64,000 bases of DNA from Gammaproteobacteria bacterium (GTDB taxonomy: Bacteria > Pseudomonadota > Gammaproteobacteria > Steroidobacterales > Woeseiaceae): the NCBI GenBank assembly GCA_024639825.1, contig JAHEGH010000009.1, forward strand, positions 1-64,000, written 5' to 3'. The notes below the pieces were generated by a model. The model did no database searches. It was not told where the DNA came from and saw nothing but the letters and a program-made list of their open reading frames with translations. The translations under genes and the position numbers were made by a program. Position 1 is the first letter of the stretch; each line of letters begins with the position of its first letter. Of this stretch, positions 39,628 through 53,397 are shown piece by piece.

Positions 39628-42030
39628 ATGAGCCCTGAATCCGAAAAAATACGCGACCAGTTCGCCGACCAGCTATCGAGCTTCGATGACAGGCTTGAGG
39701 CGACGTCGACCGATGTCGATATGCTCGCCGATATCCAGGCAGGAATCGGTTCGTTGCTGGCGTCCGGTGCTGGCAGCGAGGCGGCTATTCGCGGCGTTCT
39801 TCAGGAACGCTATGAAGCCGGTGAATTGCGCAAGGAGACCTTCCAGCTGGTCAAGTCGATGCTTGATCGCTACGTGACGGAGAAGGTACCGACAAGCCCG
39901 GTGCCAGAAGCAATGTCCGCGCCTGGGCGCAAAGAGCCACACTTTTCGGATGTGCCGGCAGCGCCGGCCGCAAGCATGGACGCCGCGGAACCCGAAGGTG
40001 ACGATGATTTCGGCAGGACAACCGTTATTCCGAATGACGCGCTTCCTTTCAGCGATACGACAACGCGTGTGCAGGTTGGCTCAGTGCTGCGCGACCGCTT
40101 CCTGCTACAGCAAGAAGTGTCTGGCGGCAGTATGGGTACGGTCTACAAAGCGTTGGATCGCCGACTCGCTGAAGCCGGATCAGAGCAGACCAGCGTCGCG
40201 ATCAAGGTCCTGTCCCCCGCGCTCGCAGAAGACGGGCACGCTTTGCGGGCGCTGCAACAGGAAGCCGCAAAAACGCGGTGTCTCTTGCACCCGAATATCG
40301 TGCGTTTTATCGACCTCGATCGTGATGACGACCTCTATTTCCTGATTCTGGAGTGGCTTGAAGGTCGCACCCTTGCTGAGATCCTGGATTCAGCTGACGC
40401 CCGCAGCATTGATACTAAATCTGCATTTAAGATCGTTCGCCAGATTGGCGATGCGCTCGACTATGCGCACCGCTGCGGCATCATTCATGCTGATATCAAA
40501 CCCGGCAACATCATGGTGATGCCGAACGGAGATGCGAAGCTGTTTGATTTTGGCGTCGCGCGCGTCAGGCAGCAACAGGCGGCAAATGATTTTGATCCTG
40601 GGGTGATGGGTGCCCTGACGCCGGCTTACTCAAGTATGCAGGTACTCGGCGGTGAAGAGCCCGTCGCCTCTGACGATGTGTTTTCACTGGCTTGCCTGCT
40701 GTATCGGCTGGTCGCTGGCTACCGCGTATTTGGTCCACGTAATGCCGCGGAAGCGTCGCAGGCAGGAATGACGCCGCAGAAACCACAGGGCATCAATGAT
40801 GCACAGTGGAAAGTCCTGAAGAAGGCATTGTCGTATTCCCGGGTTACCCGCTTCGAATCCGTCAAGGCGTTCATTGATGCCCTGGACAATTGCGCGGAAG
40901 ACACGGCGACAACCGTGAATTTCGAGGCGCCGGAGAGGTTTGGGGTCGATGACGACGGTGGTTCGCCCGGAAAGTGGTTAGCTATCATGGTTGTGCTGCT
41001 GGGCCTTGCCGGCATCGGCGCGCAGCAGATGGGCTACCTCGATCCCTGGCTTGCACAGCTGCAGGGCTCCGATGCGATAGTCGATGTAGCCGGGCCGGAT
41101 CCTGAGGAAGAATTAATTATTGAAGAGGTCGCTGCCGAACCTGAACTGGAGATTGCACCGACCACAACCGATACGCCTGCTGCCGAAGCGGCAATCGTGC
41201 CAGCGGAAGAGTCTATGGCTGAGGTCGAAGCAGAGCCGCTGCCGGTCGAGCCGGAGCTGGATCTCGTAGACTTCTCGCAGCTCCCGCCACCAACAGTGAT
41301 TGTCAGATTCTCAATAGACGGTCCCGCGGGTGAACCCACACAGGTCGAATTGACTGAAGATGGCGATCCCGTGCTGGTCGACTTTATCCGGACAGGTGAT
41401 GTGAGCACGGCGTTGACGCTCCGCCTCGAAGAAGTCGGCTTCAGCGGTAATCGGTCGCCGTGGAGTTCGGGTCAGTATGCGTATTCCAACGGTGGTCTCG
41501 TTGTGTTCCCCAGAGGGCAGGAACGTGCGCGAGTGACGCTGACAACAGCGTCAGATCCACGCCGCGAGCCCGACCAGCAATCGACGCTCAGGTTGCGATT
41601 CGCGGATACCCCGGACTCGGAGCTGGCCGTCGTCAACGTGGTGCTCAGGGATGACGACCAAAGGGCCTACGAAAATCGGCTGCCGGACAATACGATTGCG
41701 TTCGCAAGCAGCCAGGTGTCAGTCAGCGAGGCTGATCCGGCGGTGCAGATCGACGTTATTCGTTTCAACCCGGACAATACGTCGGTAGAAGTCAGTTATT
41801 CCGTGGAAGACATCAGCGCGACTGAAGGCGAGGACTATTTCGCGCCGGGAACCTACTCGATCTCATTCGGGCCCGGGCAGCGCTCAGCCAGGCTGCTGAT
41901 ACCGCTGGTGCAGGACTCGGTCGCCGAAGGTGACGAAGCTTTCGTGGTTAAGCTGGCGGTAGATCTGGAGTCCAGGCCGCCGAATATCTCCCCAAATATC
42001 GCTGTGATGATCCGCGACGACGAGCTTTAG
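39628..42030 (+). CDS. Membrane Ser/Thr protein kinase with C-terminal Calx-beta domains
   Basis: This 800-aa protein has a coiled N-terminal region (1-90). A Hanks-type kinase domain follows (about 152-420) with Gly-rich loop SGGSMG, Lys193, catalytic HADIKPGN (Asp289) and DFG at 307-309. A single membrane helix (about 450-468) leads into an acidic linker and then two Calx-beta-like domains (about 560-670 and 690-795, the latter with EGEDYFAP and EGDEAFVVKL). The kinase would face the cytoplasm and the Calx-beta domains the periplasm, a sensor-kinase layout resembling PASTA kinases but with calcium-binding-type sensors. It is followed by the structured aspartokinase leader. Confidence 0.85.
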   Translation: MSPESEKIRDQFADQLSSFDDRLEATSTDVDMLADIQAGIGSLLASGAGSEAAIRGVLQERYEAGELRKETFQLVKSMLDRYVTEKVPTSPVPEAMSAPGRKEPHFSDVPAAPAASMDAAEPEGDDDFGRTTVIPNDALPFSDTTTRVQVGSVLRDRFLLQQEVSGGSMGTVYKALDRRLAEAGSEQTSVAIKVLSPALAEDGHALRALQQEAAKTRCLLHPNIVRFIDLDRDDDLYFLILEWLEGRTLAEILDSADARSIDTKSAFKIVRQIGDALDYAHRCGIIHADIKPGNIMVMPNGDAKLFDFGVARVRQQQAANDFDPGVMGALTPAYSSMQVLGGEEPVASDDVFSLACLLYRLVAGYRVFGPRNAAEASQAGMTPQKPQGINDAQWKVLKKALSYSRVTRFESVKAFIDALDNCAEDTATTVNFEAPERFGVDDDGGSPGKWLAIMVVLLGLAGIGAQQMGYLDPWLAQLQGSDAIVDVAGPDPEEELIIEEVAAEPELEIAPTTTDTPAAEAAIVPAEESMAEVEAEPLPVEPELDLVDFSQLPPPTVIVRFSIDGPAGEPTQVELTEDGDPVLVDFIRTGDVSTALTLRLEEVGFSGNRSPWSSGQYAYSNGGLVVFPRGQERARVTLTTASDPRREPDQQSTLRLRFADTPDSELAVVNVVLRDDDQRAYENRLPDNTIAFASSQVSVSEADPAVQIDVIRFNPDNTSVEVSYSVEDISATEGEDYFAPGTYSISFGPGQRSARLLIPLVQDSVAEGDEAFVVKLAVDLESRPPNISPNIAVMIRDDEL

Positions 42031-42054: not shown

Positions 42055-42083
42055 TTGACCTGAGCCGCAAGGTTCGTTCTACT
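42055..42083 (+). promoter_or_regulatory. Candidate promoter of the aspartokinase/LysA gene
   Basis: TTGACC (42055-42060), 17-bp spacer, TCTACT (42078-42083). It would start transcription near 42090, giving a leader of about 200 nt that contains the structures listed next. Confidence 0.4.
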
Positions 42084-42103
42084 TCGTTAATGATTTCTTC
42101 CCA

Positions 42104-42186
42104 CACCCACGCGAAGTGCCAACTTATCGACTCGTTCGGTATGGAAAAACACTTAGAATACACGGCGCGCCAGAGGCGCGTGGGTG
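42104..42186 (+). promoter_or_regulatory. Structured leader with competing hairpins upstream of the aspartokinase/LysA gene
   Basis: CACCCACGCG (42104-42113) and CGCGTGGGTG (42177-42186) are perfect 10-bp complements. Inside, CGCGCC-AGA-GGCGCG (42166-42180) forms a rival hairpin that uses the same bases 42177-42180. Another near-complement pairs TGCCA (42117-42121) with TGGCA (42191-42195). No lysine-riboswitch core was recognised. A short in-frame ATG reading frame in the leader is not rich in Lys or Asp, so a leader-peptide attenuator is unlikely. Confidence 0.5.
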
Positions 42187-42233
42187 CGAATGGCAACTGT
42201 ACCGGCTAGTAATAAAGTTCGGACATTGTCAGC

Positions 42234-42268
42234 AAACCCGCCTGGAATTTCCTTGCGGGTTTTTTTTT
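42234..42268 (+). terminator. Intrinsic terminator just upstream of the aspartokinase/LysA gene
   Basis: AAACCCGC (42234-42241) pairs with GCGGGTTT (42255-42262), and a run of nine T ends at 42268, only 24 bp before the ATG. An outer inverted repeat GGACATTG (42221-42228) / CAATGTCC (42271-42278) brackets it. With so little room for a promoter after it, read-through control (attenuation) of the downstream gene is likely. Confidence 0.82.
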
Positions 42269-42292
42269 GCCAATGTCCGATAGAGGGCCGGA

Positions 42293-44935
42293 ATGAGCGG
42301 GAGCATTAGAGAAGCGGACTTCGAGAACAGTGTGGCACTCGGCGCTTCAGATGAGGTAGGCCAGTCGCCATGGGTCGTCCTGAAATTCGGCGGAACCAGC
42401 GTCTCCACGCTTGCAAACTGGGAGACGATCGCGGCGCTTGTGCGTGCGAGACTCGAGATGGGACTGCGGCCCGTTATCGTGCATTCGGCGCTCAAGGGAG
42501 TGTCCAATGTTCTGGAAGAGACCCTGCGCAGCGCCATCAGCGGTGACCCGGCCGACAGTCTTGCCCAAATCCGCAAACAGCACTGCGATCTGGCGACAGA
42601 CCTCGGCCTGGATGGCCAGGAAATCCTTGGTGAACGACTCCACGAGCTCGAGCAGCTGATCGCCGGGGTCAGGCTCGTGAAGGAAGTGAGTGTGCGGGTT
42701 CGCGTGCGCGTGATGGCACTCGGTGAACTCATGTCGACGCTTCTTGGTGCGGCCTACCTCGTAAAACAGGGGCTCCCGGTTCGCTGGATGGATGCGCGTG
42801 ACCTGCTGCAGAGCCGCTCGCGCCCTGGTCGAAACCCGGTGACGAGCTATCTGTCTGCGACCTGTGACTACAGCCCCGACGATAGTCTGGCCAGCAAGAT
42901 GGCCGACGAGAGTGACGTCATACTGACCCAGGGATTCATCGCGCGAAACACGTCCGGCGAAACTGTTCTGCTTGGACGTGGAGGCTCAGACACGTCGGCC
43001 GCGTATTTTGCGGGTAAGCTGCAGGCCAGGCGTCTGGAAATCTGGACCGACGTGCCGGGCATGTTCACGGCGGATCCGCGCGTTGTGCCATCAGCACGCC
43101 TGCTTGTCGGACTGCATTACGACGAGGCGCAGGAACTGGCGTCTGCCGGCAGCACCGTATTGCACCCGCGCTGCATTTCGCCAGCACGTGATAACGGCTT
43201 CCCCATATTTATTCGCAGCACGACGGATCCCTCGATCAAGGGCACGGTTATCTCTTCAGTGACCGATGAAGTGGAGCCACAGGTCAAAGGCATCTGCATT
43301 CGGAACGGCCTCACGCTCGTCTCGATGACGACAGTGGGTATGTGGCATGAGGTCGGCTTCCTTGCCAAAGCCTTTGGGGCATTTGCCGAGAATGGCGTCT
43401 CGGTTGATCTGATCTCGACGTCGGAAACGAACGTGACGGTCTCTGTCGACACGAGCGATGGCATGCTGCCGGATGACGTCGAAGAGGCCCTTGTCCACGA
43501 TTTGGAGAAGCTGTGCCGGGTCAGTGTGATTTCGAATTGCTCAGCCGTGAGCCTGGTCGGAAGGAAGATCCGCACGATCATGCCGCGCCTTGGGCCTGCG
43601 CTCGAAGTTTTCGAGGAAGAGCGCATTCACCTGATGTCGCAAGCCTCTAACGATTTGAACCTGAGCTTTGTCGTCGACAAGCAGCAGGGCCCCAGGCTGG
43701 TCAGCAAACTCCATGCATCCATTATTCGCAAGAAGGGTGCATCGCATGTTTTCGGTCCGAGTTGGGAGCGCCTGTTCGCCGGTGAGGAAGCTGAAGTACG
43801 TGCTGCCGATACCTGGTGGATGAAAAAGCGGAAGGAACTGTTGGCTTTGGGTGAGAAGGAAGCAAACGCTTACGTTTATAACCGGGACAGCGTCGTCGAG
43901 GCGGCGACCAATCTAACCCGTCTGAAGAACGTCGATCGTATCCTGTATGCCGTAAAAGCGAACTTCAACGAAGACCTGCTGAAAGCGGTCGATGCCTGCG
44001 GCGTCGATTTCGAGTGTGTGTCGCCTGGCGAGGTCGAGTGGGTTGAGAAAGTTATTCCGGATCTCAATCATGAACGCATCCTGTTTACGCCCAACTTCGC
44101 ACCTCGTGCCGAATATGCCTGGGCGCTGGACCGCGGCTTGCAGGTCACGCTGGACAACCTCTTTCCGCTGCAGGCGTGGCCAGAGTTGTTTAAGGGGAAG
44201 AAGCTGTTCGTGCGCATTGATCCGGGGCAGGGCCGTGGTCATCACGAGCATGTGAAAACAGCCGGCGTGCATTCCAAGTTCGGCGTGCCGCGCTTTGAGG
44301 TCGCCGATCTCAAGCATCTGGTGAAAGCGGCCGGAGCTGAGGTTATCGGCATTCACGCACACAGCGGTAGTGGCATTCTCGATCCAAACAACTGGCGCAC
44401 CGTGGCCGGCGAGCTCGTCCAGATCGCTGAGCAGTTCCCGGCGGTCGAGACAATCGACCTTGGGGGTGGTCTCGGTGTGCCGGAGAAACCGGGTGATAAG
44501 CCCATCGACCTGGCTACGGTTGATGCGACATTGGCGGAGATCAAGGAAGCGTATCCGCAGTATCGACTCTGGCTTGAGCCAGGGCGCTACCTGGTGGCGC
44601 GAGCCGGGGTTCTGCTGACCCGGGTTACGCAAACCAAGGGCAAGGGCGAGATGCGCTACATCGGCGTAGGAACGGGTATGAATTCCCTGATTCGCCCCGC
44701 CTTATATGGTGCCTATCACGAGATTGTGAACCTGACGCGCGCCGATCAGGTGCCGAGTGAGACGGTGACGATTGTCGGGCCGATCTGTGAGAGCGGCGAT
44801 CGATTGGGCAGTGACCGGCTGATGCCGCCTACCGAGGAAGGCGATATTATTCTGATTGCCAACGCCGGCGCCTACGGCTACGTCATGAGCTCGCGCTACA
44901 ACATGCGCGAGGTTGCACGGGAGATCGTCATATGA
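42293..44935 (+). CDS. Bifunctional aspartate kinase/diaminopimelate decarboxylase
   Basis: This 880-aa protein joins an aspartokinase (about 25-310, KFGGTS at 31-36 and the RGGSDTSA motif), tandem ACT domains (about 325-475), and a diaminopimelate decarboxylase (about 510-880) with the PLP lysine at about Lys555 in YAVKANF, and the HAHSGSG and GGGLGVP segments. The two halves catalyse the first committed and the last steps of lysine synthesis in one chain. Such fusions are known from Xanthomonas relatives. A GAGGG site precedes the ATG. It is followed closely by a GST gene (4-bp overlap). Confidence 0.95.
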   Translation: MSGSIREADFENSVALGASDEVGQSPWVVLKFGGTSVSTLANWETIAALVRARLEMGLRPVIVHSALKGVSNVLEETLRSAISGDPADSLAQIRKQHCDLATDLGLDGQEILGERLHELEQLIAGVRLVKEVSVRVRVRVMALGELMSTLLGAAYLVKQGLPVRWMDARDLLQSRSRPGRNPVTSYLSATCDYSPDDSLASKMADESDVILTQGFIARNTSGETVLLGRGGSDTSAAYFAGKLQARRLEIWTDVPGMFTADPRVVPSARLLVGLHYDEAQELASAGSTVLHPRCISPARDNGFPIFIRSTTDPSIKGTVISSVTDEVEPQVKGICIRNGLTLVSMTTVGMWHEVGFLAKAFGAFAENGVSVDLISTSETNVTVSVDTSDGMLPDDVEEALVHDLEKLCRVSVISNCSAVSLVGRKIRTIMPRLGPALEVFEEERIHLMSQASNDLNLSFVVDKQQGPRLVSKLHASIIRKKGASHVFGPSWERLFAGEEAEVRAADTWWMKKRKELLALGEKEANAYVYNRDSVVEAATNLTRLKNVDRILYAVKANFNEDLLKAVDACGVDFECVSPGEVEWVEKVIPDLNHERILFTPNFAPRAEYAWALDRGLQVTLDNLFPLQAWPELFKGKKLFVRIDPGQGRGHHEHVKTAGVHSKFGVPRFEVADLKHLVKAAGAEVIGIHAHSGSGILDPNNWRTVAGELVQIAEQFPAVETIDLGGGLGVPEKPGDKPIDLATVDATLAEIKEAYPQYRLWLEPGRYLVARAGVLLTRVTQTKGKGEMRYIGVGTGMNSLIRPALYGAYHEIVNLTRADQVPSETVTIVGPICESGDRLGSDRLMPPTEEGDIILIANAGAYGYVMSSRYNMREVAREIVI

Positions 44936-45525
44936 AGCTTTTCTGGGCCCCACAAACCCGCTCGCAACGCGCAATCTGGATGCTCGAGGAGGCCGGCATC
45001 GATTACGAGATGGAGCGTATTGCGTTGTCCAGTCCGGAGCGGGTAGACAGCTCAGAGTTCCTGGCGGCCAGCCCGATGGGCAAAGTCCCGGCTATAGTTG
45101 ATGGTGATGTAGCCATGGCGGAATCTGCTGCAATTTGTATTTATCTCGCGGATCGTTATGCGCCGGGCCGACTGGCACCGGCTCTGGATGCGAAGGAACG
45201 TGGCAAATACCTTTACTGGACGATATACACGCCTGCCGTTGTTGAGCCGTCAATGTCTGAGAAGTTTAACAACGTCGAAAGCAATCGCCATCGCAGCGGC
45301 TGGGGCGACTTCGACCTGATGATTGAGACGTGGGATAAAGCGCTGGAGGGCAGGGAGTGGATCGTCGCCGATCATTTCACAGCGGCAGACGTCATGCTCG
45401 GCTCGAGCGCCGTCTTTCTGCGCATGTTCAACATGTTGCCAGAGACAAAAAACCTCGACGCCTACGCAGACCGTTGCGTCGCCCGGCCGGCGTACCAGCG
45501 CTCCGTGGAAAAAGGCGCGGTGTAG
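44932..45525 (+). CDS. Glutathione S-transferase family protein
   Basis: The 197-aa protein has an N-terminal thioredoxin-fold domain with FWAPQTRSQRAIWMLEEAGI and the cis-proline segment MGKVPAI, followed by SAAICIYLADRYAP, and an all-helical C-terminal domain (ADVMLGS). These are GST features, but the substrate is unknown. Its ATG overlaps the preceding stop by 4 bp; it converges with the EF-hand gene. Confidence 0.85.
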   Translation: MKLFWAPQTRSQRAIWMLEEAGIDYEMERIALSSPERVDSSEFLAASPMGKVPAIVDGDVAMAESAAICIYLADRYAPGRLAPALDAKERGKYLYWTIYTPAVVEPSMSEKFNNVESNRHRSGWGDFDLMIETWDKALEGREWIVADHFTAADVMLGSSAVFLRMFNMLPETKNLDAYADRCVARPAYQRSVEKGAV

Positions 45526-53174: not shown

Positions 53175-53182
53175 CCTTGAAA

Positions 53183-53293
53183 CTCATCGAGACCGGTCGA
53201 GGGATAGGCCCGACGACGCCGGGGCAACCAGCGGAACTAACCATTCCGAAAAGGTGCCAACTCCTGCGATGTCTACGGACATCGAAAGATGAG
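53183..53293 (+). ncRNA. SAM-I riboswitch aptamer
   Basis: The P1 stem is CTCATC (53183-53188) with GATGAG (53288-53293). Inside lie the conserved core GAGGGATAGGCCC, the GCCGGGGCAACC strand and AAGGTGCCAACTCCTGC, which form the SAM pocket of the SAM-I class. It sits in the 5' UTR of metB. Binding of SAM should lower metB expression. Confidence 0.92.
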
Positions 53294-53397
53294 GGTTACT
53301 GCAACACCGGTGACGGTGCAGGGCAGTAGAATCCCTCCCTTGCGGGCTTCGCAGGGTTCCGATGAGCAAAGACGGAACTATTTAGCGGAGACCGACA
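53294..53397 (+). promoter_or_regulatory. Expression platform between the SAM aptamer and metB
   Basis: Two hairpins follow the aptamer: TACTGC/GCAGTA around CACCG-GTGA-CGGTG (a GNRA-type loop), and CCCTTGCG/CGCAGGG. No U-run follows, so no intrinsic terminator is evident and control of translation (RBS GGAG near 53388) is more likely than termination. Confidence 0.5.

Follow-up and report, generated by a model that had tools for sequence, protein, structure and literature searches.

The leader ahead of ask-lysA in the window, a 64,000-nucleotide stretch of Woeseiaceae DNA, is one conserved unit in which a promoter, a leaderless ORF, the helices P1-P3, hairpin E and a terminator precede ask-lysA, and this unity holds well beyond chance. 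Our preferred and, we think, probable reading of the compared sequences is that the unit is a ribosome-linked transcription attenuator of ask-lysA whose released RNA or peptide probably also acts in trans. Lysine genes are under the control of riboswitches and repressors. Among the attenuators of amino-acid genes, one with a leader peptide that keeps a Lys-Arg codon pair would close a gap. Woeseiaceae abound in sediments, and the family-wide RNA would provide a natural progression from an attenuator in cis to an RNA that stands alone, including losses and a split copy. Neither the element nor a lysine version of the leader-peptide attenuator was found in titles and abstracts of open-licence papers. 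The parts of the leader in the window and the genes behind it are as follows.

42055-42083, plus strand: sigma70-type promoter (TTGACC, 17-nt spacer, TCTACT), with conserved boxes that open the conserved block of the alignment
42090-42209, plus strand: leaderless leader ORF of 39 codons plus TAG (42207-42209), peptide MISSHTHAKCQLIDSFGMEKHLEYTARQRRVGANGNCTG
42104-42113, plus strand: P1 5′ strand, CACCCACGCG; 6 of 10 pairs with double changes
42116-42121, plus strand: P2 5′ strand, partner 42163-42168; 96.9% of cells paired, nearly invariant
42125-42141, plus strand: P3 hairpin; double changes in 5 of 5 pairs
42142-42162, plus strand: A-rich single strand, conserved in the family alignment; Lys, His and Ile codons in many relatives
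42163-42176, plus strand: invariant core, made up of the P2 3′ strand and the 8-nt internal loop GCCAGAGG; invariant or nearly so in the alignments
42166-42180: rival hairpin CGCGCC-AGA-GGCGCG, read from the sequence
42177-42186, plus strand: P1 3′ strand, CGCGTGGGTG, forming a perfect 10-bp stem with 42104-42113
42192-42230, plus strand: hairpin E, with the ORF stop codon in its loop; 3 of 5 basal pairs with double changes
42221-42228 with 42271-42278: outer 8-bp inverted repeat, read from the sequence
42234-42268, plus strand: intrinsic terminator with arms AAACCCGC (42234-42241) and GCGGGTTT (42255-42262) and a T-run at 42260-42268
42293-44935, plus strand: ask-lysA, bifunctional aspartate kinase/diaminopimelate decarboxylase (NF006515, 1217 bits against a cut-off of 802)
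44932-45525, plus strand: GST-like gene (named by eye), overlapping the end of ask-lysA

In the window, the leader ATG follows the -10 box after 6 nt, P1, P2 and P3 all lie inside the ORF, and hairpin E surrounds the ORF stop codon. Folding of the leader beats that of shuffled sequences (z -3.04, 0/200). Both the promoter and the terminator were overlooked by a consensus scan, the former because its -10 box is without an A at position 2 and the latter because its 13-nt loop exceeds what the scan allows. An earlier note, made from the letters of the window, also overlooked the promoter and the ORF. Its coordinates for the perfect 10-bp stem (P1) were right, and the stem is kept with covariation in relatives; the terminator, which it placed 24 bp before the start codon, was located correctly too and is also kept in relatives. 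The rival hairpin that it described as sharing bases with the long stem is present in the window, and its invariant bases are common to P1 and P2. The outer 8-bp repeat that it drew around the terminator is present here too, but it is not a general feature, as among 83 leaders only those of the window and L003 have it. Between the end of the T-run and the ask-lysA ATG (42293) lie 24 nt, too few to hold a promoter.

No Rfam family accounts for the leader. Rfam searched at the gathering score gave no match there, and at E-values up to 10 only chance-level matches appeared. In agreement with the earlier note, which had seen no lysine-riboswitch core, the lysine riboswitch model (RF00168) has no match at the leader and none over its cut-off in 107 Woeseiaceae genomes, in a search with stricter filters at which weak matches are lost. 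The 6S RNA (RF00013), another candidate, has no match at the leader and is present elsewhere in 8 of 8 genomes.

At the DNA level the leader was matched in 83 of 107 Woeseiaceae genomes, in most of which the match ends at the terminator, and a covariance model scored at least 100 bits in 84 of the 107. In a sample of the order (396 genomes, including Woeseiaceae), the best match to this model outside the family reached 31.6 bits, again under stricter filters that lose weak matches. Homologous leaders, which the earlier note had proposed to compare for covariation, conserve the pairings. Alignment A1 comprises 54 of the 83 leaders; 97.0% of its cells are paired, and compensatory double changes occur in 16 of 35 pairs, with 108 double-changed cells compared to 29 ± 5.4 in shuffled alignments (0/500) and 20-34 in slid versions. 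Other parts hardly change at all. The five inner pairs of P2 are unbroken in 83/83 leaders, P2 and the loop GCCAGAGG hardly vary, and the core is invariant or nearly so also in lineages without the ORF. The terminator retains its five inner pairs unbroken in 83/83 leaders, as well as GGG and at least 6 T (83/83). Among the 54 aligned leaders its stem has no pair with double changes while neighbouring stems do have them, and this difference suggests that the terminator stem is bound by a further partner. An alternative hairpin, P2′ (A1 columns 15-19/51-55), is paired in 79% of cells and covaries in part of the family; it forms AAGUG/CACUU and AUGUG/CACAU and would compete with P2.

Within Woeseiaceae, the ORF start column reads ATG in 56, GTG in 6 and TTG in 3 of the 83 leaders, and the stop column holds a stop in 64 of them (TAG 40, TAA 19, TGA 5). 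Between its start and the core the frame stays open in 73/83 leaders, compared to 3 and 47 for the other two frames. For genus g1, tree simulations predict a mean of 13.9 in-frame stops and none is observed, a count reached by 0/400 simulations; each of the other two frames agrees with its own simulation. This openness test covered the 51 ungapped leaders of the 66 in g1 and left out the gapped ones, among them L044, L058, L060 and L019, which have 1-nt indels in the frame. Approximately 8 g1 leaders deviate from the standard ORF, and in seven g11 leaders, L068 (g6) and L074 (g9) the ORF is closed, yet the RNA core stays. The sequence of the peptide is not conserved: synonymous changes number 57 compared to 72 expected, without excess, and third positions change least, so purifying selection at the protein level is not seen on the 39-aa peptide. 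Frame 2 does have an excess of synonymous changes (109 compared to 81) and was set aside because 46 of the 68 ungapped sequences are interrupted by stops in this frame. Two peptides compared with Pfam matched 0 families. No Lys codon is fixed in the Woeseiaceae leaders, window included, and Lys codons, including those in the A-rich strand, are not enriched over simulation in g1. Translation itself seems to matter more than the peptide product. The earlier note had reported no Lys- or Asp-rich leader peptide, which stands in so far as the window ORF is not Lys-rich; it is mistaken in substance, as a leaderless ORF of 39 codons does run from 42090 and the sister-family ORFs at the corresponding place have a conserved Lys(-Arg) codon.

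Leaders of the same layout, with promoter, ORF and terminator between ilvD and ask-lysA, were found in part of the genomes of two sister families of the order (f15 and f6) and in one genome of a third (f4). Their ORF is short and leaderless, their terminator is of the CCCGC/GCGGG type, and ilvD lies upstream where the locus reaches that far. Those of f15 and f6 were found by means of the L180 leader and its Ask-LysA, and the f4 leader through the covariance model; of 18 places fetched for weak matches to that model, L218, L219 and L220 precede ask-lysA and led to the sister set. Our sample outside Woeseiaceae comprised 70 upstream regions of ask-lysA (32 from f15, 16 from f6, 4 from f2, 2 from f11 and 16 from f10), with two uninformative regions, G252 and G234, counted among the 32 of f15 in spite of a misplaced gene start. 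The CCCGC/GCGGG terminator with leader layout was present in 12 f15 and 8 f6 regions and was found in none of the f2, f11 and f10 regions sampled. There was no such leader in 50 of the 70 regions, and in 23 of these 50 ilvD ends at most 105 nt from the gene alignment. Two f10 loci, L309 and L311, have terminator-like hairpins of their own (AAACGGGG/CCCCGTTT and GAACGGGG/CCCCGTTT) without the CCCGC motif, situated ~115 nt before the ask-lysA alignment.

The peptide and pairing counts are based on 21 usable ORFs, 20 from the sister families (two of them from loci outside the 70) and one from the Woeseiaceae genome G006; G170, G236, G207 and G191 had no usable ORF and were left out. Several of the f6 ORFs were picked by eye as an ATG adjoining promoter-like boxes, given that the automatic scan caught only G204 and G171, and the G219 terminator, overlooked by the scan, was also identified by eye. 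Every one of the 21 peptides contains at least one Lys. The dipeptide KR occurs in 19 of 21, where residue shuffling leads to an expectation of 5.76 (0/20000 as high), and it is encoded with both AAA and AAG and with four Arg codons. Lys codons are concentrated in the reading frame, with 56 in frame compared to 12 and 7 in the other frames (594 codons, 21 ORFs). In addition, 7 of the 9 f6 and f4 peptides share the motif K(R/C)xxSG, the SG of which is encoded by AGC GGG pairing with the terminator arm. The leaders of the sister families are apparently trp-type, ribosome-linked attenuators for lysine, and the Lys codon kept in these related bacteria suggests that lysine shortage releases the RNA brake.

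A switch of this type needs an alternative partner for the terminator arm. In the window, GTGGGT (42180-42185) can alternatively pair with the terminator's ACCCGC (42236-42241), and the equivalent six pairs (at most 6 bp) are in register in 73/83 Woeseiaceae leaders, with no covariation beyond shuffles within the family. In the sister families the partner of the terminator arm is the late part of the ORF. The paired runs reach 7-10 bp and each family has its own, such as GTTGCGGG:CCCGCAAC in f15 and CAGCGGGTT:AACCCGCTG in f6; here the pairing equivalent to that of the window covaries between families. The mean run is longer for native combinations (6.7 and 7.7 bp) than across families (5.5 and 4.9 bp). 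For 13 of the 21 leaders the run is reached by at most 14/300 shuffles; in the other 8 it is no longer than 6 bp, and shuffles do as well. Loss of the terminator costs 12.5 kcal/mol on average, and therefore any switch must act during transcription.

In the attenuator that we propose, transcription would start at or next to the leader-ORF ATG, as the promoter spacing suggests. With a ribosome at the stop codon, or with none loaded, the terminator would form and an RNA of ~180 nt would be released. A ribosome stalled inside the ORF would leave the late-ORF strand free (GTGGGT here; TTGCGGG or CAGCGGG elsewhere), and this strand could pair with the 5′ arm CCCGC of the terminator and permit read-through into ask-lysA. 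The stall signal in the sister families would most likely be the conserved Lys(-Arg) codon, which is to say lysine shortage. In Woeseiaceae, including the window, the ORF and the switch layout appear to have been kept in most leaders without a fixed Lys codon, and an invariant structured core (P2, GCCAGAGG and the A-rich strand) would have been added. The short released RNA or its peptide may well work in trans too, in the manner of rnTrpL of Sinorhizobium meliloti.

A different sensor is conceivable. If the leader were a metabolite riboswitch, P1-P2-P3 together with the GCCAGAGG loop and the A-rich strand would bind a ligand (lysine, DAP or another) and set the terminator, and the ORF would be incidental. 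The variable helices around invariant unpaired bases do form an aptamer-like pattern, the core is kept in lineages without the ORF, and in 51/83 folds computed with the 3′ arm of the terminator kept from pairing, the P1 3′ strand takes up the 5′ arm instead. We nevertheless regard this as unlikely: selection has held the frame open in g1, the sister families have the switch without the Woeseiaceae core, neither Rfam as a whole nor the lysine riboswitch gives a match, and the core persists where ask-lysA is gone, even at three loci without a co-directional gene in the 900 nt read.

The genomic surroundings bear on the reach of the proposed attenuator. Directly upstream of the leader is ilvD in 80/83 loci and a kinase-like gene in the window (39628-42030, in ilvD's place), L003 and L004. 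Ask-lysA or a single lysA follows in 76/83 loci, and in 74 of these 76 the first possible ATG or GTG is 4-75 nt past the T-run (median 24), leaving little room for another promoter. The earlier note had seen the layout of an attenuator or riboswitch. A reading in cis is upheld by these 76 loci, by the short gaps and by the sister-family antiterminator; a purely cis reading is incomplete, as the unit is also kept without ask-lysA.

Seven loci have no ask-lysA behind the leader. The first gene behind the RNA is GST-like in L011, L036 and L045; in L016 another co-directional gene is next, resembling by eye the peptidase-type gene of L011; and in L032, L048 and L068 no co-directional gene occurs within the 900 nt read, where hisE- or leuB-like genes (by eye) face the RNA. 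On the ilvD tree, which includes 78 of the 83 loci and has a bootstrap that is not fully settled, these seven leaders correspond to six changes, of which at least 5 are forced by well supported branches; the sisters L011 and L016, both without ask-lysA, probably share one loss. Six of the seven genomes (78-93% complete) contain no Ask-LysA beyond distant matches, and four of these (G056, G064, G077 and G080) have a separate LysA above the family cut-off elsewhere. In the seventh, G006, ask-lysA is present on a different contig.

The RNAs of these seven loci differ from the conserved state in 0-4 of 76 conserved columns, compared to 0-12, mostly 0-2, in the others. Inner P2 and the terminator stem are unbroken in 7/7. 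P1 is broken in 2/7 as against 21/76 of the leaders with ask-lysA, and the antiterminator in 2/7 as against 5/76 (Fisher p 0.10). Between L011 and L016, 93 of 238 four-fold sites of ilvD differ, while the RNA differs in 17 of 221 columns and in 1 of the 76 conserved ones. To judge from these comparisons, retention and constraint in lineages without ask-lysA shows selection, and therefore a function that would not need ask-lysA behind it. The gene that now follows the RNA in L011 and L016 could still be under its control. The persistence of the unit after the loss of ask-lysA makes an additional trans role of the released RNA, or of its peptide, probable.

The same loci could be taken to mean that the RNA merely adjoins ask-lysA. 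It would then be a free-standing sRNA or dual-function small mRNA situated before ask-lysA, the terminator would be its own end, and ask-lysA would depend on constitutive read-through. Such an RNA would explain why seven genomes retain the unit with no ask-lysA following, four of them with a separate LysA, and why constraint remains strong after the loss; its A-rich single strand and U-tail, the presence of Hfq in 4/4 genomes checked, and the core kept at ilvD in G006, where ask-lysA is elsewhere behind a core-less leader, all fit. On the other hand, (ask-)lysA adjoins the RNA with short gaps in 76/83 loci, attenuator-like leaders occur at the same place in other families, and RNA and ask-lysA were lost together in G058, and we judge this reading to be quite improbable. 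A conserved terminator of the upstream gene with structure arising by chance would stop transcription arriving from upstream, but the covariation, the leader's own promoter and the invariant core leave this explanation hardly any credence.

The attenuator reading, with an additional role in trans, also has to accommodate the genomes that lack the RNA. We looked for ilvD in 12 genomes, 11 with neither the RNA nor a clear Ask-LysA plus G087, where the contig is cut. As 8 of the 12 had no ilvD match at the threshold, many of the absences may be assembly gaps. In G058 ilvD is present and both the RNA and ask-lysA are gone. In G001 and three g10 genomes ilvD is followed directly by (ask-)lysA, and the covariance model detected no RNA at those loci nor at two further g10 loci. 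In G100 (L087), an internal deletion has taken out the core and the 5′ arm of the terminator, so that the leader ORF and ask-lysA form one continuous reading frame; this fusion may be an assembly error.

G006 is the genome with two leaders. The one before ask-lysA (L085, contig C97) has a promoter, the leaderless ORF MDMSGSRIATGEKKFGKRKMHRIRAGAHGRRI, a 7-bp P1 and a terminator, without the P2 core, whereas the core is present in the one at ilvD (L068, contig C65), where the ORF is interrupted and ask-lysA is missing. Compared with L068, the ask-lysA leader gives a local score of 18.0, where the shuffled maximum of 300 is 18.5, and its other five comparisons also stay inside the range of shuffled scores. 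To judge from their layout, the two leaders are likely to share an origin, and the arrangement looks like two functions on two copies. It is possible, and we put this forward only tentatively, that a lysine attenuator has been turning into a free regulatory RNA. An old Lys-Arg attenuator of ask-lysA in the order would have gained an aptamer-like core in Woeseiaceae, lost its dependence on Lys, and taken on a trans role that kept the RNA after the loss of ask-lysA, with the roles placed on separate copies in G006.

Several known systems resemble the leader in part. In classical trp, his, thr, leu and ilv attenuators, the ORF extends over the first stem and a late strand pairs with either the first strand or the terminator arm. 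The ORF over the first stem is found here as well, together with a late strand that could take either of two partners; a long run of control codons, typical of the classical attenuators, would be replaced by one to a few Lys plus Arg, and the ATG would adjoin the transcript start. Lysine riboswitches control lysine genes in cis, often by termination. The likeness of RF00168 to our leader is in the control of lysine genes in cis, which our leader would exert, and the difference is the lack of any over-cut-off match in the 107 Woeseiaceae genomes.

For the trp attenuator rnTrpL/peTrpL of S. meliloti, the released RNA and the peptide are described as acting in trans (PMC7298713). Like our leader, rnTrpL is an RNA extending from the leader-ORF AUG to the attenuator terminator before a biosynthetic gene (PMC7298713), with the start and the trans action being predictions in our case. 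It differs in being a trp leader with a 14-aa peptide in alpha-proteobacteria (PMC7298713), whereas here the gene is ask-lysA, the ORF has 39 codons in the window, the RNA core is invariant, and Lys-Arg is found in the sister families. UpsM is a 5′ leader sRNA of the dcw cluster in Rhodobacteraceae (PMC5089854); it is similarly a family-restricted leader with an internal terminator, giving an sRNA thought to act in trans, and differs in its genes and in that the abstract mentions no leader ORF (PMC5089854). The speF element (RF00518) of alpha-proteobacteria is likewise a structured leader before a COG0019 (LysA-fold) gene, but that gene is taken for ornithine decarboxylase (PMC1273637), and RF00518 has no match at our leader.

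The same window also contains a SAM riboswitch (RF00162) at 53181-53295 on the plus strand (81.9 bits), and the gene behind it, from ~53400, is by eye of the sulfhydrylase/cystathionine synthase type.
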